From: Panicum virgatum
Taxonomy: Eukaryota; Streptophyta; Magnoliopsida; Poales; Poaceae
DNA: 64,000 bases
NCBI RefSeq assembly: GCF_016808335.1
Contig: NC_053146.1
Coordinates: 35,894,470 to 35,958,469 of the forward strand
Reading direction: 5' to 3'
Shown here: piece after piece, positions 6,638 to 57,678 of the stretch
Position numbering within the stretch: the first letter of the stretch is position 1
Layout: every line of letters starts with the position of its first letter
Notes under the pieces: model-generated
What the model was told of the DNA's origin: nothing
What the model saw: only the letters and a program-made list of their open reading frames with translations
The model's database searches: none
Made by a program: the position numbers and the translations under genes

Positions 6638-7062
6638 TGTAACAAACATGGCCCGTTATGCCAAATTTTGTGATTTTGGTGATTGTGTGATAACATAATC
6701 AAATGAGACTAACAATGTTTGTGAGCTCAAGTTTGTAGGATTTCTAGGTCCGATGGATGTAATCAAATGAGTCCAATTCGCTATCAAGGTGTCCGAATCA
6801 TAGTGAAAAACCAGAGATCGAATATATTTTAGGTGTCGAAATGAAATGACAGCCATGACTAGTTGGACAAGTGAAAGAAGAATATATGCATCGGTTAAAC
6901 TGACACTACATTATTATAAAGCATCAGTGCAATGGATGATACATCGTTGAGACAAGTGAAGGAAGTTCAACCGCACCGGTTGAACTGACGCTAGTGGAAT
7001 TGAGAGCGTTGGTGCATCAGGAGGAGCCAAGGTGATTAGGGCCCAGAAGACCATGCAAAACC
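6638..7062 (+). repeat. Solo LTR, 5' part (split by a CACTA transposon)
   Basis: It begins TGTAACAAACATGG, clearly related to the LTR starts at 39957 and 47043 (TGTAACGAACATG). Its other part is 29798-31002, ending CGATTCCTTACA. The outer flanks carry a 5-bp target duplication: TATAG at 6633-6637 and TATAG at 31003-31007. No internal retrotransposon sequence exists between the two parts, only the CACTA insertion, so this is a solo LTR of about 1.63 kb. Confidence 0.9.
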
Positions 7063-7084
7063 CACTACTGCAAAAACGATTTGT

Positions 7085-7420
7085 AGCAACGCCCATTTTT
7101 TTAGGGGCGGATCTAAATTTGACCCGTTGCTACAAGTAGCCGTAGACACTGTAGCAATTCACCCGTCCCCTAGGAACACCACTTGTAGGGGCGGCTCAAC
7201 TCACCGGCTGCCCCTGCAAATGGACGCCATTTATAGGGGCGGACGGGGCGATGAGCCACCCCTACAAATGGTGTTTCTATGGGAGGATTCCCCCCCCCCC
7301 CCCCGCCCCTAAAAAATGGACCTATTTATAGGGTCGGCCGGTGGGGTGAGCCGCCCCTAGAAACACCATTTGTAGGGGCGGCTCACCCCCCCCCCCCCCC
7401 GGTCCGCCCCTATAAATGGT
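7085..7420. repeat. CACTA left subterminal repeat array
   Basis: Repeated TTTGTAGGGGCGG-type units and their complements (CCGCCCCTACAAA) alternate through this stretch, with two poly-C runs (about 7290-7304 and 7387-7400). Related units end the transposon at 29713-29790. Subterminal repeats bind transposase in this superfamily. Confidence 0.85.
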
Positions 7421-7497
7421 TGTAAGGTTTTTTGTTTTTTTTTCATCCAATGAAGCTCTCTTTGCCTCTCTCTTGATTTAGATCTCGATGGTATGGA

Positions 7498-7945
7498 TTA
7501 GTCATAGTTCATGGGAATAAAAAGCCTGTGGAGAGCATATACTTTATTTTGAACTCTTACAGGAGGTGGATCTTCACAATTTGTTAGGGCTAGGCGAATC
7601 CTCTCTAACAACTTAGCACTAGCCGCACAAGTCTGAAGGCAGTTAAATTGCCGTCTTGGATCCCATGAGGACCACCACTTTTTGGTAAGAGGGAAGGGAT
7701 GAAATATTGTCTTTGGAGGTATTGAAAGTATAGGTGACCCATTCACGAGTGGCAGGTTGTGTATGCAGCCTCTCTTTTTGGCAGCGGCACATGAGTACTT
7801 TGAGTCTACAAATTCTAGAAGTATGGTGGGCCAATAGCCGGTCCAGGTAGCAATCTGTTGTTCACTGACCTTAACCTGATCAACAAATTAAAACCAACCA
7901 TTGGTTTTGGGAGACGCATTGGCTCATCATCCGAAGATTTAACAT
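7498..7945 (-). pseudogene. Captured fragment of a DRM-type (domains rearranged) de novo DNA methyltransferase gene
   Basis: Read on the minus strand from about 7945, the frame gives DDEPMRLPKPMVGFN, then LRSVNNRLLP and GPAIGPPYF. After a frame change at about 7823 it gives EFVDSKY, CAAAKKRG, IHNLPL, FPLTKKWWSSWDPRRQFNCL, QTCAASAKLLERIR and PPPVRVQ. These match, in order, the conserved central region of plant DRM1/DRM2-type cytosine-5 methyltransferases, which carry out RNA-directed DNA methylation. About 20 codons are missing at the PPYF/EFVDS joint. After VQNKV the sequence seems to jump to ALHRLFIPMN, resembling residues just after catalytic motif I. No ubiquitin-associated domains, FSGIGG motif or catalytic PCN loop are present, so it cannot be an active enzyme. 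It lies inside the CACTA transposon and is best read as captured host sequence. Confidence 0.85.
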
Positions 7946-8053
7946 AAGTTCACATCTACACGAATAGTGTGCAATACATAGTCACAACTCACAAACTACA
8001 CATAGAGATAGAAGAGTTAACAAAAGTTGAATTGCATGCCTACATTACATCAT

Positions 8054-9071
8054 CTAACGAATAATATTCCGAAGCAAGAGGTAGTCAACATACTTAACAT
8101 CGCCAATCTTGTACCCCAGGGCATCGTCAATGAAAGTCAATGCACAGATAAGTGCACTGTCCTTTGCTTCACTTCTACGAGGAAGTGCTTTGCCGTAGAT
8201 GGTGAACATTGGTTCTGCGGTAGGATCTGGCGTGGTTCAAAATTGAAAAGAATCCTGGTAGAGACCTTCCCTTGTCTATACCGGTCCCTCCTCAGTGGAG
8301 TAGTAACCCAACTGCTCCACGGCTTGACATAAAATTTCTTCTAAACTCATCGCCGCAAAGGTGTTACCAAATATATCCTGCAATGGAGATGGAATAAAAT
8401 TTTTACAAAAGTGCTTTGATTAACAAAATTCACATACTATGTCATGTAGAAACTATCATAATTCTTTAAATTAACAAAATTCACTTACTATGTCATGTAG
8501 ATTTTCTCGTCAAAGGCTCTCACAAATACTTACAATATCATGTTGATTCTGTCGAAGTGCTTTGATTTTAAACCATGACAAATCTAGAATCAGATAACCA
8601 TAGATCTCAAGTTCCAGAAGGCATGCTTTTATGGCAGTTCTTTCATAAGTCATCTGAACTGGTGATTCCTTTCCACTAGCCACTATTGCCATCATAATAT
8701 CTGGATCTTGTCTTAATGGTATCTCGAAAGAGATTGTCATTTTCTTGAATTGTAGGCGTTCTATGGTTTCCACCTGTAGAGGTGTACCATCTAGGCATTG
8801 TAGTACTTCGGAAAGCTATTTAAAATAATCGATCCGCTGCATTAGAGGCGACAAAACATTAATAAGTATCAACCATTCTTATTAATCAAGCCAAAAAAAA
8901 GGCTCATACTCAAAAGATGGGTCTTACTATTCTTGGAGCTGTAATATTCTGTTCAGAACATGGCCTCGGTCTAGCCCTGTTGACTCTGCTGAAAATGATG
9001 CCAGGAGGGCGAGCCAGCGGCAAAGAGTAATCCTGATGCGGCACACCACAACCAAAGCCACCACTTGCCAT
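8054..9071 (-). pseudogene. Three-exon gene of unknown function carried by the CACTA transposon
   Basis: Three phase-0 exons can be assembled. Exon 1 is 9071-8928 (ATG at 9071, 48 codons, beginning MASGGFGCGVPHQDYS, donor GTAAGA). Exon 2 is 8815-8534 (acceptor TAG, 94 codons, donor GTAAGT). Exon 3 is 8377-8054 (acceptor TTGCAG, ending LLLRNIIR and a stop at 8054-8056). All join in one frame. Exon 3 has two internal stops (after EEGPV and after SFQF), so the copy is broken unless another intron removes them. Exons 2 and 3 each hold a similar module ending in a GY-x-I-x-D pattern (ELEIYGYLILDLSWFK; DDALGYKIGDVKYVDY). I do not recognise the family. It lies in the same orientation just upstream of the DRM fragment and may have been captured with it. 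Confidence 0.6.
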
Positions 9072-9679
9072 ATGCCTTCATAGAAAAATTACAATAACTA
9101 CAATTATTATTGTCTAACTAATTAGCTAATTTGAATAACTACATTTCTTATTGTCAAACTACTTAGCTAATTCCAATATCTACATTTCCTATTCTCAAAC
9201 TAAATATCTAATTTCACTAACTAAATTTCTTATTGCCAAACTAATTAGTTAATTTAATTGCACTAACTACATTTCTTATTCTCAAATTAAATATCTAATT
9301 TCACTTACTAGGCAATGTTATACATAAAAAACATTAAAAGTAAATCAAGAATCTCACCTTAGCTCAGATCCGGAGCTGAAGATCCGGATCGCGGGCGCCA
9401 GATGAGCGCGACGATGGGCAGTGGAGGAGGACGACCACGGGCGGCAGAGGAGGCGCGGGTTCGGCTGGGTAGGGGGAGGAGGCGCGCAGACGGCAGTCGT
9501 GGAGGGCGAAGGAACGACGCGGCGGGTCGGGCGCGGGAGGGGGCGCACGGGCAGAAGTGGCCACGGGCGCGGAGGGCGACGGCGCTGGAGGCGGGAGGGG
9601 GAGGTCGGGCGGCGGCGGCAGGTTACCCTCGAGCTCTCTGGAAACGAAGAAAAAAAGACAAGTCCAATATATATGTGAA
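9072..9679 (-). other. AT-rich intron-like stretch and GC-rich possible 5' leader
   Basis: 9072-9355 is AT-rich, with repeated CTAACTACATTTCTTATTG-type modules. 9360-9650 is strongly G-rich on the plus strand. On the minus strand it reads as proline-rich low-complexity protein, which could be the first exon or leader of the minus-strand gene at 8054-9071. No recognisable domain is present. Confidence 0.4.
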
Positions 9680-10830
9680 AACAAATTTAGGGGAGGGCCG
9701 CGGCTTCACCCGCCCCTACAAATTGATTTGCAGGGGTGGGCGAAGCCGCGGACCGCCCCTAGAAATAGCTTTGTAGGGGCGGGTGACGCCCATGCCCGCC
9801 CCTACAAATGTTTTCTCAATTGTTTCTGAAAAATCATTTAATCCTAAAAAATAGCAAATGACATATAAAAACGTGAAATTTTCACCATTACCATATAACA
9901 ACCTGTGCCTCTGGTGAAAAATATCGAAAGTACAATTCAGCTTTTTTATTGTTTTAATGTGTTGAAAGGACAAAGTTGCTCTTAAATTGTATGAGAGAGT
10001 AGTGACTTAGTAGAGGCATTTGAACATATTGTAGCCTTATTAATGTTGTTGTGTTTTACACATCAAAATACACATATGGTAAAACTTTCAGTATTTTTTG
10101 ATAATTTTTACTATATTTTCTGATTTAAAAGAATTTCCGGAATAAATGTAAAAACTATTTCTAGCGGCGGGCTGGGGCATCACCCACCCCTAAAAACATA
10201 TTTGTAGGGGCGGGCGATGCCGGGGACCGCCCCTAGAATTGCTTTGTAGGGCGGGTGATGCCCACGCCCGCCCCTACAAATATTTACATAATTGTTTTTG
10301 AAAATCATTTAATTCTAAAAAATAGCAACCGACATATAAAAATGTGAAATTTTTACTATTACCGTATAACAACATGTGCCTCTGGTGAAAAATACCAAAA
10401 GTACAATTCAACCTTTTTTTTGTTTTAATGTGTTGAAAGGACAAAGTTGCTCTTAAATTGTATGAGAGAGTAGTGATACTAAAGATAAAGTTTGAACATA
10501 TTTTCTTTTTACTTAGAGTGCAATGTAGGTTTACAAATTTTGTTATGTTTTACACATCAAAATACGCGTATGGTAAAAAATTCAGCATGTTTTGATAATT
10601 ATTACTATATTTTCTGATTTAAAAGAATTTCCGGAATAAATTTCGAAAACTATTTTTAGGGGCGGGCGTGGCCGCCGACCGCCCCTACAAATCTATAGAG
10701 GTGGGTCATGGCGCCACCCGCCCCTACAAATAGATTTGTAAGGGCGGTCGTCACCCCAGGTGCCTAGAAATATATTTGTAGGGTCGGTTGATGCGCCCAC
10801 CCGCCCCTACAAATCGAGCTCCTATAAATA
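9680..10830. repeat. Internal subterminal-like repeats with a tandem duplication of about 480 bp
   Basis: Blocks of TTTGTAGGGGCGGG and its complement occur at about 9685-9810, 10160-10285 and 10655-10815. The AT-rich spacers between them are copies of each other: 9815-10150 and 10290-10650 share long runs such as GTGTTGAAAGGACAAAGTTG and TATTTTCTGATTTAAAAG. A third partial copy lies at about 13240-13345. Subterminal repeats in mid-element suggest internal duplication or fusion of two CACTA ends. Confidence 0.8.
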
Positions 10831-10867
10831 TATGTGAACTTAGATAAATTTTTACACTCCCATGGCG

Positions 10868-11640
10868 CGCGCGAGAAGACACCGGAAGGCTGCCAAAATT
10901 TTCCGTGCTCCCTCGCCGCCGCACCTTCCGCCGCCGCTCCCCCCGCCTCCCTGCCACCACCGCCGCCCCCGCCAACCCCGCGCCGCCCCCTCCGCCGCCC
11001 CCGCCAACCCCGTGCCACCCCCTATGCCGTTCCCTAGCTTTGATCCGGCGCGTGCTCCCTCCGCCGCCTCCACCACGCCCGCCTCCTCCTCGCATCCGCC
11101 TCCGCCCCCGCTGGCCTGCCTCCTCCTCGCCGCCCCCGCGCCGCTCTGACGCCTCCGCCGCTTCGCCCCCTCCGCCCCCGTGCCGCTCCCTCAGCCGCCG
11201 CCCCCTCGTAGATCCGGCGCCTCCTCGCCACCGCTGGCCTGCCTCCTCCTCGCCGCTCCCTCCGCCCCCGCGCCGCTCCCTCCGCCCCCCGCGCCGCTCC
11301 CTCCGCCGCCGCCCCCTTTTAGATCCGGCGCCTCCTCGCCACCTCTCCTCGCCGTCGCCTCCACCCCCGTTGGCCTGCCTCCTCCTCGCCGCCCCCTCCG
11401 CCCCCACGCCACTCCCTCCGCCGCCGCCCCCTCGTAGATCCGGCACCTCCTCCCCGTGCCTCCTCCCCGCCGCATCCGCCTCCTCCCCGTGCCTCCTCCC
11501 CGCCACCTCCTCCGCCGCGCCTCCCCGCCACCTCCTCCGCTGCCACCTCCCTGCCACCTCCTCCCCGCCACCTCCTTCGCCACCGCCTCCCCGCCACCTC
11601 CTCCCCGTGCCGCCTCCCCACCACCTCCCCGCCACCCCAT
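10868..11640 (+). repeat. Cytosine-rich, strand-asymmetric low-complexity tract
   Basis: About 770 bases are dominated by CCGCC, CCTCC and CCCC on the plus strand, with few guanines. Modules such as TCGTAGATCCGGC...CCTCCTCGCC recur. Long open frames on both strands encode only proline/arginine or glycine repeats and share no domain with known proteins, so I treat them as non-genes. It could be the GC-rich leader of the plus-strand relic that follows. Confidence 0.75.
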
Positions 11641-11655
11641 CCTCAGGGGACCAAC

Positions 11656-13130
11656 CGATGGCACATGTCAACTATGAACACTTGACAATCTTTGAGGAAC
11701 ATGAGTTCAACTTGCACGCTCAGGTTTTCGCCGGCCTCTTAATAATTACTAAGTTTCCTCTATGTTTGCATATTCAAGTAGAAGTCCCCCGTTCTGTCAG
11801 TCGCCGCAAGCTACTACGAGTGTTAAGGGAAAACACTGGGATACAGCTTCCGCTAGAGAATGTCTTATGTTTGTTCGGCGATTATGTGCTGCTAACCTGA
11901 ACATTTGAAGAAGCCACTCGCATCATGAGCTATCCATACATCCACGTTGAGAACCATGTCCTTGCAATTCTAGGATGGATGCCCGACTATGGGTCCACTA
12001 CTTTATTCTTGGATGAGTCTATTCCAGTATTGCACCAGATAGAAGGTAGACAACAACATCTACAAGAAAGTAATGTACCACTTAGTCTTCTCATATCTGG
12101 ATTGCCACCACAATTATTTCTGCAGTGTCCCACGATATTACATAGAATCTTCGTGAACATATGTAAACTTCGCAACATCTAAACGAGGCAAGTGGATTTC
12201 TCAATCAGGGTGCACACATTCGCTCCAAGGAACGTTATACCTAGTGTTGTACATGTAGCCGTCCGCAGAGTTCAGACAGGAGGGGGTTCCTACTTGAGCA
12301 TATGGCCAATTTGGATTCATGCTGATGTTCTTCCACAGGGCGACCTAACGGCAATCCAGTTAGCCGCGAGCACGAACGGTAACTGCAATTACAAAAGACC
12401 TTTGCTCCATTAATGTGAAACTGTTCCGTCTAACAATTGTCACTCTTCCTACAGCATCGAGCAACTTTCCACTCCGATGCACACTGTACCCGCAACCCCA
12501 AGGTTACCATGGTGCGGGGACTTCTAGACAAGAAGGTGGACAAGGAGGTGGACATGAAGCACGTCTTCTGCAATTACGTATGGTTCAACTTGCCTATACA
12601 TTGGCCCTAACTACATAGTTGAGCACCAAAACAATCTGTAAACTACAATACCTCATGCGCATTCTCATGCAGATCTGATTGAAGAAGAAGATTCGCCTCC
12701 TCAAGGGAAATGAGGATTTGGTTCCACCGAAGTAATAGAGACACCATCAAGCACACTATCGGATCACACACAGCCAATGGACATTGCGGAGGACAACCAG
12801 GAAGAATCCAGCCATGACGAAGACGAAGAATTACTATGGTACAGTAATTACTCCAATCCTTATGTATACAACTATCCAACTAAAACAAAAATAAGTTGTC
12901 CATCTGTTGTTTTGCTAACACAACTCTTTTACAGCTCCGGAGAATAATAATTACAAAGATGAGGAGACACTGGAAGCGGCAAGCACTCAAGAAAGTTGTG
13001 CCTGATGCCACGACTACGTGCCCATCCTCTGTCGTACCCACGGAGCAACACCGCAGTCGCCGCCGTGAGACTCTCGTTGCACAATGTGTGCTTGTATCAT
13101 TTCGCTTTGTATGTGGTAGTAAGAACTAGT
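11656..13130 (+). pseudogene. Unrecognised plus-strand coding relic in the CACTA transposon
   Basis: Protein-like sequence runs through several broken frames. 11656-11900 contains EVPRSVSRRKLLRVLREN. 11925-12182 contains HVENHVLAILGWMPDYGS and LISGLPPQLFLQCPTI. 12192-12413 contains VVHVAVRRVQTGGGSYLSIW. 12896-13129 ends with a basic tail. The second part continues the first after one stop at 11898-11900. The layout (a small alpha/beta-like module, then an LP-rich segment, then a VRRV...W segment) faintly recalls DUF4283-like proteins common in grass genomes, but I cannot assign it. No transposase motif was seen. Confidence 0.4.
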
Positions 13131-13239
13131 AGCTAGTTGTATGGATTGAATGTTCTGTTTGTTGTAATGTATGGACTTCAATCATTTACCGTGCGGATTT
13201 AATGTATGGACACGTAATTTTCGCCCCCTAGTATGGATT

Positions 13240-13437
13240 TCTATCTTAGTGATACGCGTATGGTATAAATTACAGCTTTTTTATATTGTTTACTATATTT
13301 TCTGATTTTAACGATTTTTTGGATTAGTATGGAAAACGATTTTTAGGGGCGGGTGGTCACCCGCCCCTGTTAACACATTTTCAGAGGCGGGTGGGGGGGT
13401 CACCCGCCCCTAAAAAACCATTTGTAGGGGCGCCCGC
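13240..13437. repeat. CACTA right subterminal repeats, left of the gypsy insertion
   Basis: An AT-rich segment related to 10555-10650 is followed by alternating CACCCGCCCCT and AGGGGCGGGTG units. It continues after the gypsy element at 29713. The duplicated target CCCGC is 13433-13437. Confidence 0.8.
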
Positions 13438-16400
13438 TGTGGCGGAACCACCCAAAACTACTGGGCCCGGGTGCACTGATCTTCGTTGCTAAGCAACTCT
13501 GACCCAATCTGGCACTCACCGGCAGTTCCTCGAGTGAAGCCTCGATAAAAGCCACGCTATTCCAGGATCAGCAGACAACACTCACACGAAGGTGAGCCCA
13601 GAGATTACAACACAAACCATTTCATACATCTCAGAGTGATTGCAGCGGAAAGAAAACTTATTACAAACCATGTTCAGACTAGCGAAGTACTACGGAGTTC
13701 CAACTCCTCAAATTATTCAAGTCTCAAAGTTCAGCGGAAGCATTAAAAGATAACTAACGAAATAACGTGACGCATCGGTAAAGCCCGTACGAATGCGTCA
13801 CTCAGCGGGAGGGTGATTAGCACCAGCTGAAGGGCCATCCCACTCAACAGACCAACCCGGAGGCAGAGTACAAGGCCAAGTAAGACTCGCAAACAGGTCT
13901 TCAAAGTTAGTACCTGAAAAACAGTGCCACAAGCAAGGCTGAGTATACTAATACTCAGCAAGACTGACCCGTCTCCGGATATAACATAGTCCGATAACTA
14001 GACATGCAAGCTTTTTGGTTGGTAGGGTTTGTTTGCCAAAAATGCCGCTAAGTGTTGATCCTTAATTTCAGGTTTTACTTAGCCAGATTCTAGTAGAATT
14101 AACCATTCTAAATTTGCAACTGACTCTACTCAAACATGGTAGAGCAACCATTTAATCAACCAACAGTATTTTCATCATTGGATTTCACTTGTTACTCTAT
14201 GTGACCGAAAACATTAAGCAATCTCATGCCGTGAGAGGCGGACGATTCTGAATCGAATTTCAACCTGGCCAGGGGAACCTAGACCACACGCATGGGGATC
14301 GACTTCGCTCCCGCCCACGCTACTTTTCCCCTTTCTTTCCAGTCCGTGGATCCGGAACACCCTCCCCGACTACAGAGTCCGACCACTCTGCACCCGTACG
14401 TCGCGACATAAAAATAAACCCTACTTCTACCAGGAGGGTGCGAGATCGTTCCACTCGCCGGTCCAATCAGGTACTTAAGCTTACCGATTACCATATTTCT
14501 CGGTATGTGGCTAGTACTTTCAAACGCTTAACGAAATGAGCCACACACCGCGACCTTAGCCATTTTTGACTATACCAGCGGGGTATCACAACTACACAAC
14601 CCCGCCCGTTGTCCTTACATTTCAACAGGAATTAAAGTCAGTACAAATCCTATTTGCTCGCGAGAGGCAGGGAACCACTCGACTTCTACCGAACCTATTT
14701 AGCATGGCAACTAGTCGATAAAAAGATCCGGTATCAAACATAGGTTCCTATGGATCATGCATCTAGGGTTTTCGATCAACGCCTAGAGAACTTAATTGCA
14801 GAAAACCAACTATTACCATACATTAATAAATAGATAGCAGAATGGTAATTCGGAAAAAATAGTGGGATTATGCTCCGGGGCTTGCCTTCTTGGGCACTGT
14901 CAGACAGAAAAGCTTCTGGGGCTTGGCCCCGGTCTTGAGACAAGTTAGTACAGTTCAGATTAACCTCCTGCTCCGCACGAGAGTCCGCGGGCACCAGTTC
15001 GTAGTCTCCGTCCGCGAGGTTAACCGTTTCTATATGCAATGCAAGATTTTGAGTTATTCAGGGATATAATTTCTTTCCTTCACGATAAAGTTGTAGTCCA
15101 TGAAAGTTAATTTAGTGATGATTTCACATTTCATTGCATGGGCAACCGTTTATAGAGTAGCAAACATAACTACGGTTATTCATGAATGAGTGGGGTTTTG
15201 GGTTTTCATTTTTTTATTTCAACACATAGCATGCTTTCATTATTCCTTAACAACACCACTACTAAAGAGCTAGTGATGAAACACTAAAGTAACTCAGATT
15301 CAAACTTGAACATTAGGGTATAAATTTCAGCATCTACCATAGAGCAAGAACTATAACTATTCATGCAAAAGGATTACTCTAGTTACTTCATCTTTTTGTA
15401 CAGAATGTTCAACATGGATTCTGGTGCTACAAATTTTATGCAAGCAACTTCAAAGCATAAACTCAGTACTGAAATTTTTCCAGATTTTATACACTTATAT
15501 AGCAGAGGTGATAAAAAGATTAAAAACAGCAAGCCATTAACAAAGATTAAATCTACAGAAAGTTTTACTAAGGATTTGCTTCTCAAATGTTTACCAGAGA
15601 CTGGTCCTGAGTTAAACATACTCCAGAAAATTTTTCAAGATTTAACTCACTATGATAAATTAGTTATTCAGTTAATTTAACATGAGTTTGCATGAATTTC
15701 TCAAGATGCATACGACCAGTATTGCATCTGAACTTTTTATCACAGGTAGAACATACTCTAAACAAGATCATGCCCAAAAATGATGATCAGAAACATTGTA
15801 GATTACTCAGAAAAAAAATAGTAAATCTAGCCCTAAGATGTTAAGCATGATTATTCACCAAGGCAAAACTCTGTAACTGCAGCTCAAAATTTTTAGACAG
15901 GAACATAGAGCTAAAAAGAGACTCCAGAAATAAATATAAATTTTTCTGAGCATAAGAACTATATATGAGGAATTAAGTTGATTAAACAAGCATAAATCAT
16001 GGTATATAGCAAATGAACTCTAATAAATTTGAATTTTAGAGATTTGCAGGGATTCAGTGGCACAAGGCTGTAGTAAAATTTTCAGAGCAAGTTCATGTAC
16101 ACATTTTCCAGAATTAAATCGAGATTGCTAACAACAGATTAGAGAATCTTGATTGTTCTAACCCGATAACTGTTTTGGTTTGGTGTCATCTTTTTACTGT
16201 GATCTTAGCATCCCATTAGTTATAACATATCCAAAAATCAAAGTCATTTGATGAGCAGAACTTCATGAACATGCATAAGGTGATTTTCTTAATCTTTTCC
16301 CTAGATTAAATTCGGTTGAGTTTCTGCAAATGTGAATGTTACAAAATTTGTAGATTTTGTTACAAGGATTCCAGATCAGTTGAGTTTGCATTTTTCTGAT

Positions 16401-17829
16401 TTTTCTGTGATTTGTTTCGCATTTTAGAAGTTCACTGGTATACACTGTAAAACTTGCAGAGACACCCTTGAACGAAAAAAAGAAATTACAACCGGGTCCT
16501 TCGCCGGCCTTCTCCGCCGTGGCATCTTGCCGGTGGTGTTCTGCGGTGCAGGGCTTACCGGGGCTGCCACGGGGAGGCGCGTGGGGGAGAAAGGATCGAG
16601 GAACACCTACCCTGGTCGACGTTCGAGCGTTTGGAGCACAGGTTCAAGCTCGTCGGCGTTGATGGCGGGTCGGTTGTTCGGCTCGCCGGCGCTGGAGGTG
16701 AAGGAGGGCTCGGGGTAGGGGAACAAGGCGCGCACGAGCACCACGTGAGCTCGTTGATGCTTCTGGGGTAGCTGTCGGGCTCGGCCTTCCCCGGAGCTGG
16801 CCGGTCCGCGGTGAGCCTGAGCTCGCCGGCGGCGGCGCAAAAGGGGAACGGCTTCGGGAGGGGTTTTGGGTTCGATTCCGCGCGCGTGGAGCGTAACTAG
16901 GAGGTGGAGAAGCTTCTGCGGAGGTCGGAGGGGGCAATGTGGGGCTGGGCTAGCCGGTCCGCGCGAGCTGGATCTCGGCGGCCATGGCGGAGCGGCGGGA
17001 GGAGGAAGAAGAGGAAGAAGGGGCGCGACCGTGGGTTTCTGGGGGTCTTTATAGGCCAAAGAGCTCCTGGGTGAGCAATGTAGTGACTGGGGGTGGTCGA
17101 TTTGGCCCTGGGCGACTCGACGGCGAGCGGGCGGAGGAGGCAGCGGCGCTGCGCCGGCCGGGGTGTCGTGGCGGCTCGGGAGCGGCCTGGGACGCGTGTG
17201 CGCGTGAGGAGGTGCCAAGGGGCGGGCCAGGTGGCGTTAAACGGTTTCCCCGGGTCCATTTGGCCATGGGCGCGCGGTGGACTTCGTCCACCGGCGGCGT
17301 ACGGCGGGCGGCGGGCGAAACAGAGCCAGCCGGGAGAGAGAGATGGAGATGGGGGCTCTTTTGCGATTTCTGAAAATTTCAGGGACCTCTCGGTAAACAA
17401 AAATTATCTCCTACTTGGAGGGCTCAAATGGAAAAGTGTTGAATACCATTTTTGTATAACTTTTCAAGATCTACCACTTTTGTGTTATGCAAATTTTCGT
17501 TTGAAACTCACATTTTGAACTATTGGTACATTTACATATTTGCACAAAAGGACTTTAGTTTTAATCAGTTTTTGACTTGACTTTGGCTGAAGTTCAATTG
17601 AGCACATGTCAATTGAAATACTTCTCATGAGCCAACAAAAATTTTGTGCACATTTTTGAATTAAAATTTGAGTAGTTTTTCACTCCTTTCTCTTTTTCCT
17701 TTAATTTCTTTTGTATGATTTGTATTTTATTTGGTCCTTTCTCTTTGAATTAGTTTCCCAAATTTTTCTTTTAACTTTCCCTAATGTGTATTGATTGGAT
17801 TTCAAAGTATTGACACCTGAGGTGTCACA
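13438..17829 (-). repeat. 3' LTR of the gypsy element
   Basis: In plus-strand terms it runs from TGTGGCGGAACC to GAGGTGTCACA, so the element-sense ends are TGTGACACC and GGTTCCGCCACA. Open frames inside it (for example 16607-17218) are duplicated in the other LTR and encode only low-complexity proline/arginine sequence; they are not treated as genes. Confidence 0.95.
17046..17053 (-). promoter_or_regulatory. LTR TATA box (3' LTR copy)
   Basis: Minus-strand TATAAAGA precedes a GC-rich segment. The equivalent in the 5' LTR, which would drive the genomic transcript, is 28928-28935. Confidence 0.6.
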
Positions 17830-17843
17830 ACCTACCCCCCTTA
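17830..17843 (-). other. Polypurine tract of the gypsy element
   Basis: The minus strand reads AAGGGGGGTAGGT directly before the 3' LTR, the expected plus-strand primer for reverse transcription. Confidence 0.8.
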
Positions 17844-17901
17844 AAAAGAATCTCGTCCCGAGATTGGATGATTGAATTGAGGCGGGGAAAAATGATATAC
17901 C

Positions 17902-20586
17902 TCAGGTAGAACTAAGGAAACCCGGATAGTGTCGATTAAGATAATCCTCCGTCTCCCAAGTGCCTTCTTCTTCAGTGTGATGAGACCACTGAATTTTATA
18001 CATTTTTAACACCTTTCGACGAGTACCTCTCTCTTTTTGATCCAGAATTTTGAGTGGATATTCGGTATATGAGAGATCGGGCTCCACTAAAATTTCCTGT
18101 TGATCAATGATTTCCGTAGGAACTCGAACACATTTCTTGAGTTGGGATATGTGGAAAACATTATGGATGGCGGCAAGTCGTGAAGGAAGTCGCAAACGAT
18201 AAGCCACGGGTCCACATTCTTCAATGATTTCATATGGCCCGACATAGCGAGGTGCGAGCTTACCCCTAACTCCGAAACGTTGAACGCCTCGAGTTGGGGA
18301 CACTCGTAAATAGACGTGATTACCAACCATGAACTTCAAAGGATCCCTTCTTTTATCGAAATAACTCTTTTGCCGAGACTGGGCTGCTCGGAGATTTGCT
18401 TGTACTATTTTTACTTTCTCTTCAGCCTCGACCACTAATTCAGGTCCAAAGATTTGACGTTCTCCAGTCTGGGACCAACTCAAAGGAGTTCGACACCGTC
18501 GACCATACAAGGCCTCGAAGGGTGCCATCTTCAGACTGGCCTGATAGCTGTTGTTATAAGAAAACTCAGCCAAGGATAAACATTTGTCCCAGTTCTTGTC
18601 ATAATGGATGACACATGCTCGAAGCATATCTTCAAGAATTTGATTAACCCTTTCGGTCTGTCCGTCAGTCTGTGGATGGTAAGCTGAGCTTCGAATTAAT
18701 TTAGTTCCGAGAGCCTCTTGGAGTTGCTCCCAAAACCTTGCCACAAACTGAGGACCACGATCCGATATAATTGTTTTGGGTATACCGTGTAGGCAGACAA
18801 TCCGATCAATATAGATCTCAGCATATTTCTTGGCTCGATATTCAGTATGCACTGGAATAAAATGAGCAGTCTTTGTGAGCCTATCAACTATGACCCAAAT
18901 GGAATCATGGTGCTGAGAAGTATTTGGTAAGCCCACAATGAAATCCATGCTGATATCTTCCCATTTCCAAGATGGAATTGGTAGAGGTTGAAGAGTTCCA
19001 GCAACCTTCAAGTGACTAGCTTTCACTCTCTGGCAGGTGTCACATTCTGCGACATATTTGGCAATCTCTCTCTTCATGCGAGTCCACCAAAAATTTTGCC
19101 TGAGATCTTGGTACATCTTGGTGCTGCCCGGATGAATACAGAATTTAGAGAGATGTGCTTCGTCCAGGATTTGTTTCCGCAGGTCAGGATTCTTGGGAAC
19201 GACTAGGCGATCCTCGAACCACAAAATTCCTTTATGGTCCACTCGGAAACACTTATATTTATTTTCACCTTCTACTACTTGCTGCTTGAGGATACCAACA
19301 CTTTTGTCGTGTAATTGTGCCATGATGACCTGGTCATAGAGTGTCGGTTCCACCGAAATATGATTCAAAGAGCCCTGAGGAATAATTTCTAATTTCAGCC
19401 TTTGCATTTCAGCACACAATGTGTCATTATACGACTCCATTGAAAGGCAATTGCAGTGAACCTTGCGACTGAGCGCGTCGGCTACCACATTCGCCTTGCC
19501 CGGATGATAATGAACCTCCAGATCATAATCTTTAATTAATTCCAGCCATCTTCGTTGCCTCATATTCAGCTCACTTTGAGTGAAAATGTATTTGAGACTC
19601 TTATGGTCGGTATAGATATTGCAATGAGTGCCCATAAGATAATGTCTCCAAAGCTTGAGAGCATGAATAACGGCGGCTAGTTCCAGATCATGAGTGGGAT
19701 AATTTAGCTCGTGTGGCCGTAGAGCTCGGGAAGCATAAGCTATCACCCGATTGTCTTGCATTAGAACACAACCAAGACCAGTGCCTGAAGCATCACAATA
19801 AACGTCGTATGGTTTATTGTTGTCAGGTTGAGCCAAGACTGGTGCAGTGGTTAGATGTGCTCTCAATGTATGGAATGCTTCATCACACTTCGTGTTCCAT
19901 TTAAACTTGACATCTTTCCTTAGTAGTTCTGTCATGGGCTTAGCAATTCTGGAGAAGTCCGGAATAAATCTGCGGTAATACCCCGCCAAGCCGAGAAAAC
20001 TGCGGATCTGATGAACTGAAGTAGGAGGTTTCCAGTCCATCACTTCTTGCACTTTGCTGGGATCAACTGAAATGCCTTCACTAGATATAGTGTGACCCAG
20101 AAATTTGACTGTGTCCAGCCAGAATTCACACTTGGAGAATTTTGCGTATAGCTTATGATCTCTGAGACGTTGAAGAACAATGCGCAGATGTTGCTCATGT
20201 TCTGCCTCATCTTTGGAATAGATCAGAATGTCATCAATAAAGACCACGACAAACTTGTCAAGTTCCGGCATAAATACCGAGTTCATGAGGTACATGAAAT
20301 AGGCCGGAGCATTGGTGAGACCGAAAGACATAACCAAGTACTCATAGAGACCATATCGGGTTGAGAAGGCGGTCTTGGGAATATCACAAGGCCGGATTTT
20401 AATTTGATGATAACCCGAACGAAGATCAATCTTGGAGAAAATCTTTGCTCCAGCCAATTGATCAAACAATACATCAATGCGGGGAAGTGGATATTTATTT
20501 TTGATGGTCACCGCATTGAGAGGCCGGTAATCAACACACAACCTCAGGCTATCATCTTTCTTCTTTACGAACAATGCTGGACAGCC
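17902..20586 (-). CDS. Gypsy pol: reverse transcriptase, RNase H, integrase and chromodomain
   Basis: The frame is open for about 894 codons after the UAG at 20587-20589. Counting from the FVKKKDD segment, reverse transcriptase comes first, with the FIDDILIYS active-site box near residue 112. RNase H follows ([13 protein letters not shown] near 265; [10 protein letters not shown] near 325), then the integrase zinc-binding HHCC region (ending CDTCQRVK near 520). The integrase core has [17 protein letters not shown] and the [13 protein letters not shown] glutamate motif. A chromodomain-like tail ([16 protein letters not shown], then [14 protein letters not shown]) ends the protein at 17902. The tail places it in the Del/Tekay chromoviruses, whose chromodomain directs integration to heterochromatin. 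It is continuous in frame with gag-protease apart from the single stop, and there is no ATG at its own start, so it would be made only as part of the polyprotein. Confidence 0.93.
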
Positions 20587-22365
20587 CTAAGGTGAAGCAC
20601 TTGGGCGAATAAAACCCTTGTCCAACAGTTCTTGTAGCTGGATTTTTAGTTCAGCCAATTCTTTAGGCGGCATTCGATATGGCCTTTTTGAAATAGGTGC
20701 TGTACCAGGCTGAAGTTCAATGACAAATTCGATATCCCGGTCTGGCGGCATACCAGGTAAATCTTCCGGAAAAACATCTACATACTCACGGACTACCGGA
20801 ATATCTTCGAGACGAATATCTTTCATGGCATAGACACAAGAGTTGTGACATTGAGGATGTGGTAAATATAGAACCGAATGACCATGAGTTGGAGAATTTA
20901 TTTCAACGGCTCGGGAAGAGATATCTAACATTACCCCATGTCTTTTCATCCAATCCATTCCTAGTATAATGTCCATACCTTCTAGTGGCAACAATATCAA
21001 GGTGGTAGGAACAGTTTTACTACCCAAACTAAGTGGCGCATTATGAACGATTTGGTTTGATGCGACTTTACCACCCGGGGTAGATATCATGAATGACCCT
21101 TTTGTGTGACAGAAATCTAACCCAACCCTTGCTCCAAATTTAGAACTAATGAAGCTATGAGATGCACCAGAATCGAATAAGATAACAGTGGGGTGTTGGT
21201 TTATAGAGAATGTACCCGACATGATTGGTGCTCCCTCAGGAAGGTCAGCAAGGTTGGTGAAGTTAAGTCGGCCCTGCCTGACTTGAATGGTTTGCCTCTT
21301 GCCCTTGTACTGATCATTTCTGCGAGAAGCCTGCCCTTGAGATTGTCCCGCCTGGGGGCACATCTTGGCAAAGTGATCCGGACTCCCGCATCTGAAACAG
21401 CGGTTATTATTATCGGGGCGAGCGGCTGGCTGAGCATTCGGCCTAGGGCCGTTCTGCTGCTGCTGAGGTGCAAATCGAGCTTGCTGGGGAAGCCCGAATC
21501 GAGTCGGCTGCTGCTGTTGAGGAGACCTAATAATCCAACGCCCTGGCTGAGGGGCCTTCTGAGAGGATGCATGTGGGTTATTTTGCACAATACGATACCT
21601 CGGTGCAGAGGCACTCGAGGGTCCAGCAGGTGCCTTGCGCTTCTTTTCAGCGCGGTGTGCAGAAATCAGATCCTCCTGAGATATAGCCATATTCACCAAT
21701 TCATTGAATGAGTCTGCTCGGACAAGATTTAGCCTCTCCTGTAATTTGGTACTAAGGCCTCGACGGAAGCGCTCACGCTTCTTAGCGTCGGTATCAGCAT
21801 GATGTCCAGCATACTGACACAATTGATGGAATACTTGAGCATACTGCACCACGGTACGAGTGCCCTGAGTCAAGGCCAAGAACTCGTTGAGCTTACGGTC
21901 AAGAAGTCCAGCTGGAATATGATGATCTCGAAAAGCCAATTTGAATTCATTCCAATTCACCACATGATCAGCCGGTAGCATCCCGTGGTAATGATCCCAC
22001 CACATACGAGCTGATCCGCGAAGCTGCTGCGCGGCATAGCGAGTCTTGTTCGCTTTGGAACAAGGAGTAGTCAATAGAGAAAACTTGGACTCGATCGTGC
22101 GAATCCAAGCGTCAGCGTCCAGAGGCTCATCCGCTTTATTGAACAGCGGAGGCTGAGTGCTGAGGAAATCTTGGTAGCTCGCCTCTTGTGCGTGATGAGC
22201 ATGATGCCCACCCCGCGGTTGTTGCTGAGCTTGAACCAGCTGCCGCAAAATTTCCGTCTGGGCGGCAAGAACCTCAGCAATACCCACTGGTGGAGGAGGT
22301 GGAGGTGGATCGCCATTCCCTCCGGCTCCAAAACCACTAGGGGTGCCTCGAGTTGATCCAACCAT
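20587..22365 (-). CDS. Gypsy gag and protease, ending at a premature UAG
   Basis: The ATG at 22365 opens 592 codons. The N-terminus has a proline run, then the retrotransposon gag domain (WIRTIESKF near residue 88, ARMWWDHYHG near 119, FRRGLSTKLQERLN near 200), a glutamine-rich linker, a CCHC zinc knuckle (CFRCGSPDHFAKMC near 322) and aspartic protease (LFDSGASHSFIS near 396, ILGMDWM near 467). The start of RT follows (RPYRMPPKELAELK), and the frame stops at UAG (20587-20589) inside the RT N-terminus, where related elements continue. The next codons downstream are in the same frame and also match RT, so this is a point nonsense change, not a normal gag-pol boundary. Confidence 0.93.
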   Translation of the reverse strand: MVGSTRGTPSGFGAGGNGDPPPPPPPVGIAEVLAAQTEILRQLVQAQQQPRGGHHAHHAQEASYQDFLSTQPPLFNKADEPLDADAWIRTIESKFSLLTTPCSKANKTRYAAQQLRGSARMWWDHYHGMLPADHVVNWNEFKLAFRDHHIPAGLLDRKLNEFLALTQGTRTVVQYAQVFHQLCQYAGHHADTDAKKRERFRRGLSTKLQERLNLVRADSFNELVNMAISQEDLISAHRAEKKRKAPAGPSSASAPRYRIVQNNPHASSQKAPQPGRWIIRSPQQQQPTRFGLPQQARFAPQQQQNGPRPNAQPAARPDNNNRCFRCGSPDHFAKMCPQAGQSQGQASRRNDQYKGKRQTIQVRQGRLNFTNLADLPEGAPIMSGTFSINQHPTVILFDSGASHSFISSKFGARVGLDFCHTKGSFMISTPGGKVASNQIVHNAPLSLGSKTVPTTLILLPLEGMDIILGMDWMKRHGVMLDISSRAVEINSPTHGHSVLYLPHPQCHNSCVYAMKDIRLEDIPVVREYVDVFPEDLPGMPPDRDIEFVIELQPGTAPISKRPYRMPPKELAELKIQLQELLDKGFIRPSASP

Positions 22366-23019
22366 CTGAAATGTGAGTACTTTTGCATTAGGCTCATCAT
22401 TATCATCATTTCAAATGGAATATACAACTCAAAATGACATGGAAATACTGGAAATTGCTTAATCAGGTTGTGCAGCAAGACCAGCGATACGAAAACGCTC
22501 ATAACTGGAGTTCGGTACATGATATGGACTTGAAATTTTTACAAGAGATAGGAAATTTCATGATATACAACTTTGGTAGTCATCACAAAGTCAGATTTCC
22601 AGAGTAGGTTAGTCGAAAAATTCAATTACTCCTCCTCTGGTTTTTCTGCTTCACAGAAAACAGAGCTTCTGTAATTTGCGATTATCTCCTGCAATACCAA
22701 TCCGTTTGAGCTGAAATTTTGCGAGCAGGTTCCTGATGAAATTTGGAACAACTTTGGTATTCAACTCAGGAGCTAAATCCGAAAGGAAAAGAGGATAAAA
22801 ATTCGAACTAGCTGCTGCCTTCAGCTTTTTGCAGATCACTGATATTTAACACTAGTAGCATTAGGGGTTCATTACATCCATCGTTCTCTCATTTCTACTT
22901 GGTCACTCCTAACATCAGTACTAAGGGGGTTACTCAACTCTAAGTTAGCCTAGTAGCCATGATCCAAAAGTAGGCTACACTAAGAGGAGTCTACAAAAGC
23001 TAAGAAACAGCGCCTCGGT
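22366..23019 (-). other. Leader between the extra ORF and gag
   Basis: About 650 bases without a credible ORF separate the end of the 299-residue ORF from the gag start codon. The sequence is AT-rich, with no recognised site. Confidence 0.6.
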
Positions 23020-23919
23020 CTACATGTTGACCGATGCCTCACTCGCCGCGGGAGTGTGAACCTCAACCGGTGCGGGCTGCGGCGCCTGGTCCTCGGAGTC
23101 CATCTCTGAAACGCCCTCTATCTCCTGGGGCTCGTCCTCCTCGTCCACCTGCATCTCATCGGGAGGTGCGTGAAGGGCATCCTGCGCGTGCTGTATCGCG
23201 TGGAGCTGCCCTTGAGCCTCGTCCAACTCAAGCTGCAGGTCGTGAAACTGGTCCTCCAGGAAGTTGATCGTAGCGTCACGATCCGACACAGTGTCCTGAA
23301 GCTCGTGAACCTGGCCGTGGAGCTGGGCGATAAGAGTAGCCCTGCTCTCGAGCTCGGTACTAGCCTCCTGAAGCTGCCCATCTCTCAGCTGGACCGCCAG
23401 GTGCAAGGCCTGAGCGTGGTCCACCAACTGAGCGACGGCGTAACTCTGGTAAGTGTGAAGTCTGTAAAGGCCGTCCAAGCACATCGCTGTCGTCTGAAGT
23501 GCCCCGACCGGGTCAAGGGTAGCGACCACGTCCACGTGTGCCATCCGGTCGAGCCAAAGCGGGTCTGCTGGGTCAGGTGCAGGGAACAACCCGAACGCGG
23601 TCAGAACCACCTCCAGAGGGCGCAAAGAGCAAAAGGTGGTCATCGCCCTCATGGCGGTAAGCTCCCAGGTGTCCAGCAGGTAGTGACCGACCATCTGAGT
23701 CACGATCGGCTCCCACCCGTTGAGCGGGTGCTGCGGGATCACCATCGTCACACTGCAGCGACGAACTCCGTCCTCCACAAACTCGTGGCCGTCGTAAACC
23801 GGTGGCTGGAGGTAACCGGCTGCACTCAAAAGCTCCCAAAGACGGCGGGGAAACCCGTCCCAGTGCAGGCAAGCGGAGTGCACGTGCCCCTGCGCGTCAA
23901 CGACCAGCAGCTCTTCCAT
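23020..23919 (-). CDS. Additional ORF upstream of gag in the gypsy element, unknown function
   Basis: The ATG at 23919 opens 299 codons (MEELLVVDAQGHVHSACLHW...) ending at 23020, in the sense orientation of the element and about 650 bases upstream of gag. The first 170 residues look globular, with many Trp and Leu. Residues about 175-250 form a probable coiled coil (QLRDGQLQEASTELESRA and LEDQFHDLQLELDEAQGQ). The C-terminus is strongly acidic (DEMQVDEEDEPQEIEG). It has no zinc knuckle, protease or envelope-like transmembrane segment. Its full length in a young element suggests it has been kept open, while codon and base composition is richer in GC than gag. I do not recognise the family. Confidence 0.75.
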   Translation of the reverse strand: MEELLVVDAQGHVHSACLHWDGFPRRLWELLSAAGYLQPPVYDGHEFVEDGVRRCSVTMVIPQHPLNGWEPIVTQMVGHYLLDTWELTAMRAMTTFCSLRPLEVVLTAFGLFPAPDPADPLWLDRMAHVDVVATLDPVGALQTTAMCLDGLYRLHTYQSYAVAQLVDHAQALHLAVQLRDGQLQEASTELESRATLIAQLHGQVHELQDTVSDRDATINFLEDQFHDLQLELDEAQGQLHAIQHAQDALHAPPDEMQVDEEDEPQEIEGVSEMDSEDQAPQPAPVEVHTPAASEASVNM

Positions 23920-25319
23920 CTGTCCCAACAAAAGACCGATGGATCAGCTGATGGTAACAAGAACTACTAACTCTGGAATAGTGAAAGAAATGGCCAAAAC
24001 TGTAGAGAGCTTGCTTCAAAAATTCTCAAAAATTTACACAAGATCCCTCTGATGTTAAGGAACAATTCACCTAGTCATCACTAAGCTCAATTCGGATTCC
24101 ATGGGGGTGATATGCTCAGGTATTCAGAGTGGTGTTAACCAGGAAAACAGAGTGTCCAGAGAGGGTGTATTTTGACTATAACTCTCAACCCAGTCGTCAA
24201 AAATTCTTCAAATGTTTATGGTAAGCTCATCACTTAGTGGTCTACAACTTTCATGTTGAACGATTTTTAGTTTGAGCAACTTATAAAGGTCGAAAAATTT
24301 CAGTTGTATAGACGGTTCAGAGTTAACAGTTTTACACAGGGTTGATCCAAAAATACAAATACCATGGTAGAAGGCTTCAAAAATTTTCAAATTTTTACAG
24401 CAGCTTGATAACTTAGGAAACATCATTTAGTCTTACTACCCCAAGTCGATTTAAGTAACTTATCAGAAGGTTAAAATTCGTGGAAACCAGGTTGCAGACT
24501 TTCTGGATACTCCCTAGGATAGTGTTTTAACGGATTTGCTTGCGATTTCCCCAGAGATTTATTTGCTAATCTTTTTGAGAATGAATGCAGAGCCTACATC
24601 CTCACCAAGGAGAAAAAATTGCCAAGTAACCTTGGTCTTACGCAATGACTTTGGTGGCATACATATTACGTCTCTCACTATATAGCTACTCGACATAGCT
24701 AGATAGCCTATAATTCGATTTCGAGTTAGCGTACCTGCAGAAGATTGACAGTATATAAAATGAACCTTTCGTGCCAGCACTCACGAAAGCGTCCCCATAC
24801 ATTACCGATTACTATAGAATCGGCATCCATACCATTACCGCCGTATGGACAACGTTAAGCATACGTTATCGAAACAACGTATTGACTGAGTACCGTCTTT
24901 GACGGGGAATTGAATTCCAATTTCGAACTATTACTCCCCATATACTCAACCGAAGATGGTATATGGGCAGCAGCTCAAGTAGGCCACTGCTTGAGCTCCA
25001 GCGTTCGGCTCGCATCACCGACGGGAAGGTCAGACTCCCTCAGCTGACTGAGTAAGCATACCTTCGTGGCGATGATGTAGTTGCAGAATTTAAATTACAG
25101 GATTTAAATACTGAGAAGTAAGGTGCTGGAAGTTAGCCATACAAAATAAGCCACCTGATTATACCCATAAGATTCCCTAGGGCTTTACGTCCTAGACTTG
25201 TCCTTGGAGATCCTAAACTCTTTCAAAACTTTAGTAGCTTTGAAGTCAAGTTTTAAGTTGTTGTTGTGAAAACCGAGGTTGCCATCCCTGGTAGGCTGTC
25301 TGCGAGCTCTGATGCCAGC
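23920..25319 (-). other. Gypsy 5' leader with primer-binding site
   Basis: About 1.4 kb between the 5' LTR and the extra ORF hold no supportable gene. TGGCATCAGAGC (minus strand, 25317-25306) lies two bases after the LTR and differs from the initiator tRNA-Met site at one base. With the LTR start site near 28900, gag would sit behind a leader of about 6.5 kb. Confidence 0.75.
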
Positions 25320-28300
25320 TGTGGCGGAACCACCCAAAACTACTGGGCCCGGGTGCACTGATCTTCGTTGCTAAGCAACTCTGACCCAATCTGGCACTCA
25401 CCGGCAGTTCCTCGAGTGAAGCCTCGATAAAAGCCACGCTATTCCAGGATCAGCAGACAACACTCACACGAAGGTGAGCCCAGAGATTACAACACAAACC
25501 ATTTCATACATCTCAGAGTGATTGCAGCGGAAAGAAAACTTATTACAAACCATGTTCAGACTAGCGAAGTACTACGGAGTTCCAACTCCTCAAATTATTC
25601 AAGTCTCAAAGTTCAGCGGAAGCATTAAAAGATAACTAACGAAATAACGTGACGCATCGGTAAAGCCCGTACGAATGCGTCACTCAGCGGGAGGGTGATT
25701 AGCACCAGCTGAAGGGCCATCCCACTCAACAGACCAACCCGGAGGCAGAGTACAAGGCCAAGTAAGACTCGCAAACAGGTCTTCAAAGTTAGTACCTGAA
25801 AAACAGTGCCACAAGCAAGGCTGAGTATACTAATACTCAGCAAGACTGACCCGTCTCCGGATATAACATAGTCCGATAACTAGACATACAAGCTTTTTGG
25901 TTGGTAGGGTTTGTTTGCCAAAAATGCCGCTAAGTGTTGATCCTTAATTTCAGGTTTTACTTAGCCAGATTCTAGTAGAATTAACCATTCTAAATTTGCA
26001 ACTGACTCTACTCAAACATGGTAGAGCAACCATTTAATCAACCAACAATATTTTCATCATTGGATTTCACTTGTTACTCTATGTGACCGAAAACATTAAG
26101 CAATCTCATGCCGTGAGAGGCGGACGATTCTGAATCGAATTTCAACCTGGCCAGGGGAACCTAGACCACACGCATGGGGATCGACTTCGCTCCCGCCCAC
26201 GCTACTTTTCCCCTTTCTTTCCAGTCCGTGGATCCGGAACACCCTCCCCGACTACAGAGTCCGACCACTCTGCACCCGTACGTCGCGACATAAAAATAAA
26301 CCCTACTTCTACCAGGAGGGTGCGAGATCGTTCCACTCGCCGGTCCAATCAGGTACTTAAGCTTACCGATTACCATATTTCTCGGTATGTGGCTAGTACT
26401 TTCAAACGCTTAACGAAATGAGCCACACACCGCGACCTTAGCCATTTTTGACTATACCAGCGGGGTATCACAACTACACAACCCCGCCCGTTGTCCTTAC
26501 ATTTCAATAGGAATTAAAGTCAGTACAAATCCTATTTGCTCGCGAGAGGCAGGGAACCACTCGACTTCTACCGAACCTATTTAGCATGGCAACTAGTCGA
26601 TAAAAAGATCCGGTATCAAACATAGGTTCCTATGGATCATGCATCTAGGGTTTTCGATCAACGCCTAGAGAACTTAATTGCAGAAAACCAACTATTACCA
26701 TACATTAATAAATAGATAGCAGAATGGTAATTCGGAAAAAATAGTGGGATTATGCTCCGGGGCTTGCCTTCTTGGGCACTGTCAGACAGAAAAGCTTCTG
26801 GGGCTTGGCCCAGGTCTTGAGACAAGTTAGTACAGTTCAGATTAACCTCCTGCTCCGCACGAGAGTCCGCGGGCACCAGTTCGTAGTCTCCGTCCGCGAG
26901 GTTAACCGTTTCTATATGCAATGCAAGATTTTGAGTTATTCAGGGATATAATTTCTTTCCTTCACGATAAAGTTGTAGTCCATGAAAGTTAATTTAGTGA
27001 TGATTTCACATTTCATTGCATGGGCAACCGTTTATAGAGTAGCAAACATAACTACGGTTATTCATGAATGAGTGGGGTTTTGGGTTTTCATTTTTTTATT
27101 TCAACACATAGCATGCTTTCATTATTCCTTAACAACACCACTACTAAAGAGCTAGTGATGAAACACTAAAGTAACTCAGATTCAAACTTGAACATTAGGG
27201 TATAAATTTCAGCATCTACCATAGAGCAAGAACTATAACTATTCATGCAAAAGGATTACTCTAGTTACTTCATCTTTTTGTACAGAATGTTCAACATGGA
27301 TTCTGGTGCTAAAAATTTTATGCAAGCAACTTCAAAGCATAAACTCAGTACTGAAATTTTTCCAGATTTTATACACTTATATAGCAGAGGTGATAAAAAG
27401 ATTAAAAACAGCAAGCCATTAACAAAGATTAAATCTACAGAAAGTTTTACTAAGGATTTGCTTCTCAAATGTTTACCAGAGACTGGTCCTGAGTTAAACA
27501 TACTCCAGAAAATTTTTCAAGATTTAACTCACTATGATAAATTAGTTATTCAGTTAATTTAACATGAGTTTGCATGAATTTCTCAAGATGCATCCGACCA
27601 GTATTGCATCTGAACTTTTTATCACAGGTAGAACATACTCTAAACAAGATCATGCCCAAAAATGATGATCAGAAACATTGTAGATTACTCAGAACAAAAA
27701 TAGTAAATCTAGCCCTAAGATGTTAAGCATGATTATTCACCAAGGCAAAACTCTGTAACTGCAGCTCAAAATTTTTAGACAGGAACATAGAGCTAAAAAG
27801 AGACTCCAGAAATAAATATAAATTTTTCTGAGCATAAGAACTATATATGAGGAATTAAGTTGATTAAACAAGCATAAATCATGGTATATAGCAAATGAAC
27901 TCTAATAAATTTTAATTTTAGAGATTTGCAGGGATTCAGTGGCACAAGGCTGTAGTAAAATTTTCAGAGCAAGTTCATGTACACATTTTCCAGAATTAAA
28001 TCGAGATTGCTAACAACAGATTAGAGAATCTTGATTGTTCTAACCCGATAACTGTTTTGGTTTGGTGTCATCTTTTTACTGTGATCTTAGCATCCCATTA
28101 GTTATAACATATCCAAAAATCAAAGTCATTTGATGAGCAGAACTTCATGAACATGCATAAGGTGATTTTCTTAATCTTTTCCCTAGATTAAATTCGGTTG
28201 AGTTTCTGCAAATGTGAATGTTACAAAATTTGTAGATTTTGTTACAAGGATTCCAGATCAGTTGAGTTTGCATTTTTCTGATTTTTCTGTGATTTGTTTC

Positions 28301-29712: not shown

Positions 29713-29797
29713 CCCGCCCCTGCAAACCGCCATTTTTAGCTGCGAAAAGCAGGGACGATTATGCGGCCCGCCCCTACAAATCATTTTTGCAGTAGTG
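29713..29797. repeat. Right end of the CACTA transposon
   Basis: Subterminal CCGCCCCTACAAA units lead to the terminal inverted repeat ending GCAGTAGTG, followed by the ACC target duplication. The gypsy insertion is only 85 bases from this end. Confidence 0.92.
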
Positions 29798-43639: not shown

Positions 43640-43640
43640 A

Positions 43641-43654
43641 GTGGTTCAGAGCCG
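43641..43654 (+). other. Primer-binding site, degenerate
   Basis: GTGGTTCAGAGCCG lies immediately after the LTR. It resembles the initiator tRNA-Met site TGGTATCAGAGC with one base lost. Confidence 0.65.
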
Positions 43655-43765
43655 GGACTCACTTGTCTCACAAACAAAGCAAATTCTATTGGCAAATTTG
43701 TGTTTACCGGCTCATTAGATCGGTAGGCTTCACCGCCTAGTGAGTTAGCTCTTTTAGGGGAAGGG

Positions 43766-57628: not shown

Positions 57629-57678
57629 TTGGTTGAGGTTTTCAATACCTTAACCGGTTCGAAAACCACTTGGCGACT

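Follow-up and report, generated by a model that had tools for sequence, protein, structure and literature searches.

A gapped piece of a DRM2 methyltransferase gene within a CACTA transposon of Panicum virgatum

Results

The window, the whole 64,000-nucleotide stretch of Panicum virgatum DNA analysed here, holds a CACTA element that encloses three pieces of a DRM2 gene and a nested Gypsy element (Table 1). The terminal sequence CACTACTGCAAAAA occurs exactly at 7063 (plus strand) and at 29784-29797 (minus strand), and these are its sole two matches at up to two mismatches. Since 17 of 100 shuffles also gave at least two such matches, the stronger evidence is the 95.8% agreement of the terminal repeats over 24 bp together with the ACC duplication, 3 bp being the length of the target site duplication in the CACTA superfamily. 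GGGGCGG-type subterminal repeats recur beyond the left array at 9672-10814 and 13393-13432, and similar CCCGCCCCTACAAAT words lie near the right end. Inverted CACTA ends, a 3-bp duplication and subterminal repeats thus all mark the element as a member of the superfamily. When the flanks are joined with a single ACC, a 15-bp exact repeat of a left-flank unit spans the junction (BLAST E 0.003), as it would if the site had been uninterrupted before insertion. The initial annotation, made from translations of the sequence, had described a DRM-type capture bounded by CACTA ends and an ACC duplication; ends and duplication are both present, the right end, however, lying 22.7 kb away because the Gypsy element sits between them.

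Table 1. Positions of the transposon, gene-piece and frame features in the window
Feature	Position	Strand	Details
CACTA element	7063..29797	.	inverted CACTACTGCAAAAA ends, terminal repeats, ACC
Left target site duplication (ACC)	7060..7062		
Right target site duplication (ACC)	29798..29800		
Left terminal inverted repeat	7063..7086	+	
Right terminal inverted repeat	29774..29797	-	
Left subterminal repeat array	7167..7400		GGGGCGG units
DRM2 piece 1	7818..7934	-	P0002 residues 254-292 (SDDEPM...GPPYF); tblastn 90%, 39 aa
DRM2 piece 2	7540..7815	-	P0002 residues 318-409 (EFVDSKY...VQNKV); tblastn 83%, 92 aa
DRM2 piece 3	7504..7536	-	P0002 residues 496-506 (ALHRLFIPMNY)
Open frame, 129 codons stop to stop	7498..7887	-	spans pieces 2 and 3
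Gypsy LTR element inside the CACTA element	13438..29712	-	LTRs 13438-17829 and 25320-29712; duplication CCCGC
Gypsy target site duplication (CCCGC)	13433-13437 and 29713-29717		

By coordinate arithmetic the CACTA element measures 22.7 kb with the Gypsy element and ~6,455 bp (~6.46 kb) minus it. The two Gypsy LTRs are 99.7% identical (12 mismatches over 4399 aligned positions), corresponding to an age of about 0.1 million years at a substitution rate of 1.3e-8 per site and year; the Gypsy element lies within the CACTA element, whose own insertion is therefore older. Between gag-pol and LTR of the Gypsy element, a 307-codon minus-strand frame (23020-23943) gave only weak, sub-cut-off Pfam matches.

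The transposase of its own that would mark an autonomous CACTA element was not found in the frames scanned: no transposase family matched in 7 CACTA frames at E 0.01, nor in 6 read-through frames (8000-9079 and 11640-12961) at E 1, the latter giving only two weak sub-cut-off matches, to other families. Two further stretches of the element look protein-like, neither with a Pfam match above cut-off. Upstream of the DRM2 pieces, 8057-8815 on the minus strand contains frames of 60-101 codons and is possibly a second captured gene; on the plus strand, 11650-12960 is a broken stretch that follows a proline-rich, GC-rich region and may be what is left of a CACTA gene, or a further capture.

As reference for the DRM2 pieces we used P0002 (604 aa, 27 member sequences, JGI source), the full-length protein of highest identity, 83% over the region covered; P0001 from Oryza nivara scored more bits (251 vs 166) but at 63% identity. 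This predicted P0001 protein carries a tandem duplicate of part of its methyltransferase domain. A tblastn search of P0002 against the whole window, at E up to 1, matched pieces 1 and 2 (E 2.4e-57) and nothing DRM2-like besides 7934-7818 and 7815-7540. Piece 3 is short yet specific: the match covers 13 residues with a score of 38, whereas the next-best place in the six frames of the window reaches 28, and the same stretch reads ALHKLGIRMNYD in the sibling copy P0051 (see below) vs ALHRLGIRMNYV in P0002. The joined translations of the pieces matched six distinct solved DRM chains (E 8.5e-38 to 9.9e-30). The motifs listed in the initial annotation are indeed present in minus-strand translations of 7400-8000, PKPMVGFN and GPPYF in one frame and EFVDSKY, IHNLPL, KKWWSSWDPRR and NCLQTC in another, and the best matches are to DRM2 rather than to a family other than methyltransferases. 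Its description of the piece as rearranged did not hold, since all three pieces keep the order of the gene and are separated by two internal gaps.

Between pieces 1 and 2, P0002 codons 293-317 (25 codons, including ENV) are exchanged for 2 bases; for a source without an intron at this place, the arithmetic gives 73 bases lost on balance and a shifted frame. The second gap, between pieces 2 and 3, takes out residues 410-495 and FSGIGG with them. P0002 residues 293-317, 410-495 and everything past 506, including PCN, are without a match in the window. We take ENV, FSGIGG and PCN to be motifs of a working DRM methyltransferase, and because gaps and truncation have removed all three, the window copy as it reads cannot make the enzyme. 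Gapped and truncated as it is, the piece also excludes an intact, colinear DRM gene at the locus, the finding that would have spoken against a capture. In the 129-codon frame the DRM2 part is not preceded by an ATG. A second or inverted copy of the DRM2 piece was not found within the window. Scans of viral contigs matched 6 patterns for P0002 and 4 for the piece, with no relatives among them.

The 129-aa frame was also used as query for sibling copies among proteins 0.55 to 1.75 times its length, which returned 13 matches. Nine of these fragment-length matches belong to the captured lineage, and seven (P0051, P0052, P0053, P0055, P0057, P0058 and P0063) carry the same abnormal join after piece 2, which reads NKVCALHKLGIRMNYD in P0051 and KYVLSTGLVFA or nearly so in the other six; the window DNA, read in the other frame, gives KYMLSTGFLFP at this place. 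In P0052, P0055, P0057 and P0063 this shared tail extends for no more than about nine residues. P0059 and P0060 end upstream of the join and were placed in the lineage by shared residues. P0053 extends into the CACTA subterminal repeats, its alignment with the window reaching 7363. In P0051, a 138-aa frame with an M start crosses all three pieces and holds its frame over both gaps. The initial claim that a CACTA element captured part of a DRM-type gene is borne out, and siblings with the same abnormal join make it stronger. The capture is, on these protein records, from which the copies are known, no one-off, and the family is multicopy.

The siblings also bear on the order of events. The ENV stretch is retained in P0053, P0055, P0057 and P0060 (as EDV in P0060), P0052 retains what follows it, and the window and P0051 have lost it; the deletions therefore probably came after the capture. 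In P0058 and P0059 a stretch of the DRM2 piece is repeated: it appears once in the same shifted frame as in the window and again, further on, in the frame of DRM2. Three of the 13 matches are gene fragments (P0054, P0056 and P0062, with nearest genes at 99%, 98-99% and 85-88%), and the placement of P0061, which has additional upstream DRM2 sequence, is uncertain. A profile search, which scored only the 7992 candidates with the most words in common, yielded 311 matches; P0064, among the 120 of them listed, has the lineage residues and lacks the second gap. Lineage words were sought among 171 proteins.

A tree of 59 rows and 129 columns, from which P0058, P0059, P0062, P0063 and one row with fewer than 80 filled columns were excluded, nests the window piece among DRM2 sequences, making it a member of the DRM family by descent. 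The window piece groups with six siblings, P0061 and P0002 in a single clade (support 100/96), which P0003 and P0008 (Panicum miliaceum DRM2) join in a larger group (90/89); the sequences from rice cluster apart (99/94). With the clade close to P0008 of Panicum miliaceum and rice apart from it, the source was probably the DRM2 of a panicoid, Panicum-like grass lineage. No branch sets the seven captured rows alone on one side. P0061 falls among them with its further upstream DRM2 sequence, so the source may have been a DRM2 pseudogene lineage, or the first capture may have been longer than the piece now seen.

How does the captured sequence evolve? We called a position conserved when at most one of the other non-redundant genes departs from it, and took as baseline 21 DRM2 genes that show 8-30 differences, leaving out one gene at a time; neither sum includes the gene fragments P0036, P0050, P0054 and P0056, or P0061. 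Compared with the nearest gene, the seven captured rows carry changes at 47 of 364 conserved positions (12.9%) and 70 of 429 variable ones (16.3%), whereas the 21 genes of similar divergence differ at 13 of 1199 (1.1%) and 281 of 1485 (18.9%). The window alone differs at 7 of 57 conserved and 13 of 72 variable positions (p 6.5e-5), and the pooled p of 2e-18 is an overstatement because the captured rows share ancestry. The captured rows thus change conserved positions almost as often as variable ones, which the genes do not: measured on protein letters, DRM2-like constraint is gone and the function of the captured protein is not maintained.

Discussion

DRM2 is the plant gene for an enzyme that silences jumping genes, and its capture by a CACTA element at this locus is as good as shown. 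The account that we favour, with a probability of about 0.83, is that a non-autonomous CACTA element took in a stretch of DRM2 from its own host lineage, a transduplication of the Pack-CACTA type; that the captured stretch would then have lost parts through internal deletion; that the element with its DRM2 pieces would have been multiplied by transposition; and that the window copy would be a decaying passenger. The 129-codon frame of the window and the M-start frame of P0051 could hint at coding and count against the passenger part of this account.

The best known precedent for another outcome comes from rice, in which pre-miR820, a miRNA fold-back, sits in CACTA elements and is similar to OsDRM2 over a stretch that runs from exon 2 into intron 3, and in which miR820 lowers OsDRM2 (PMC3459959, Nosaka et al. 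2012). Among open-licence PMC papers, the miR820 papers were the only ones found to link DRM2 with CACTA elements, and rice miR820 is the one case found of a CACTA element turning part of DRM2 against its host. Could the piece described here do the same, yielding small RNAs, either siRNAs or a miRNA of recent origin, that reduce DRM2 in the host and so weaken transposon silencing? The published precedent concerns the same gene and the same superfamily, the family is multicopy, and a protein similarity of 83-90% suggests that the DNA, too, is near enough for effects that depend on homology. Positions 7815-7920 can fold into a 27-pair hairpin, which points the same way, but this fold has a z of only -1.56, is equalled by 14 of 200 shuffles, and is weak evidence because the hairpin was picked after the first fold; as a whole, the piece does not stand out from its shuffles in folding (z -0.11; equalled by 44 of 100). 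Also against an effect of this kind, positions 5000-31000 gave no match to Rfam at gathering score, miR820 was not found within 3 mismatches, and no inverted copy of the piece turned up in the window. The miRNA precursor hairpin against DRM2 that defines the rice case was not found. Small-RNA action on DRM2 would on balance be unlikely, and the initial annotation was right to put forward a regulatory effect only as inference. The same holds, to the same degree, for the broader idea that, in separate groups of grasses, two lineages of CACTA elements independently took different parts of DRM2 and that both use them against it, here through small RNAs that would derive from the methyltransferase-domain piece.

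The complement of miR820, as printed in PMC4429473, encodes GPSTR, at residue 36 of the 626 of P0035, and the present piece corresponds to P0035 residues from 276 on. The captured parts do not overlap in the protein and belong to different parts of the grass tree, and the capture seen in the window would therefore most simply be independent of the miR820 capture. Like the rice miR820 elements, ours is a CACTA element with a captured piece of host DRM2 that exists in several copies after capture; unlike them, it has its piece from within the N-terminal half of the methyltransferase domain, and this piece has neither a clear fold-back nor a known small RNA.

A quite different view would make the DRM2 pieces a pseudogene already resident on the site, with the CACTA ends around it unrelated or coincidental. 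The length of the element, 22.7 kb with the Gypsy element, and its broken state give this view some room, as does the fact that only one copy is read as DNA. However, P0053 has the same DRM2 tail joined to the same subterminal repeats, the join recurs in 7 of the 13 matches, and the flanks joined with one ACC remake the 15-bp repeat unit, which together leave a resident pseudogene very improbable. Least probable of all is that some copies make a short DRM2-like decoy protein that interferes with DRM2: the P0051 frame kept over both gaps and the in-frame ENV stretch of P0053, P0055 and P0057 speak for it, but conserved positions of the captured rows change nearly as often as variable ones, the window copy is frame-shifted between pieces 1 and 2 with no start preceding piece 2, and open frames are over-represented because database proteins are predicted frames.

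Gene capture by Pack-CACTA elements is well described (PMC8903248, PMC13317346), and the element of the window resembles them as an apparently non-autonomous CACTA element with a piece of a host gene between its ends, multiplied, it would seem, by transposition into multiple copies, these being copies in protein records. The words DRM and methyltransferase are absent from the main texts of these two papers, and the elements of PMC8903248 have target site duplications of 5 nt. An action through small RNAs would further recall the VANDAL transposons, which counter host silencing (PMC10398659); unlike here, where there is only a broken gene piece, their VANC is a working, sequence-specific anti-silencing protein. 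With a second capture, from a different part of the gene, in a different grass lineage and found in several copies, it becomes possible to test whether transposons repeatedly gain by taking silencing genes or capture them neutrally. If the captures are neutral, miR820 would be the exception.

The remainder of the window contains other repeated sequence. The right flank of the CACTA element (~30184-30500) has four places of 72-74% similarity at 40699-48100, three of them ~1.1 kb apart, and Copia-like polyprotein frames, recognised by eye, lie at 57637-63595 and 868-1863; closely similar stretches of them occur near the two ends of the window.
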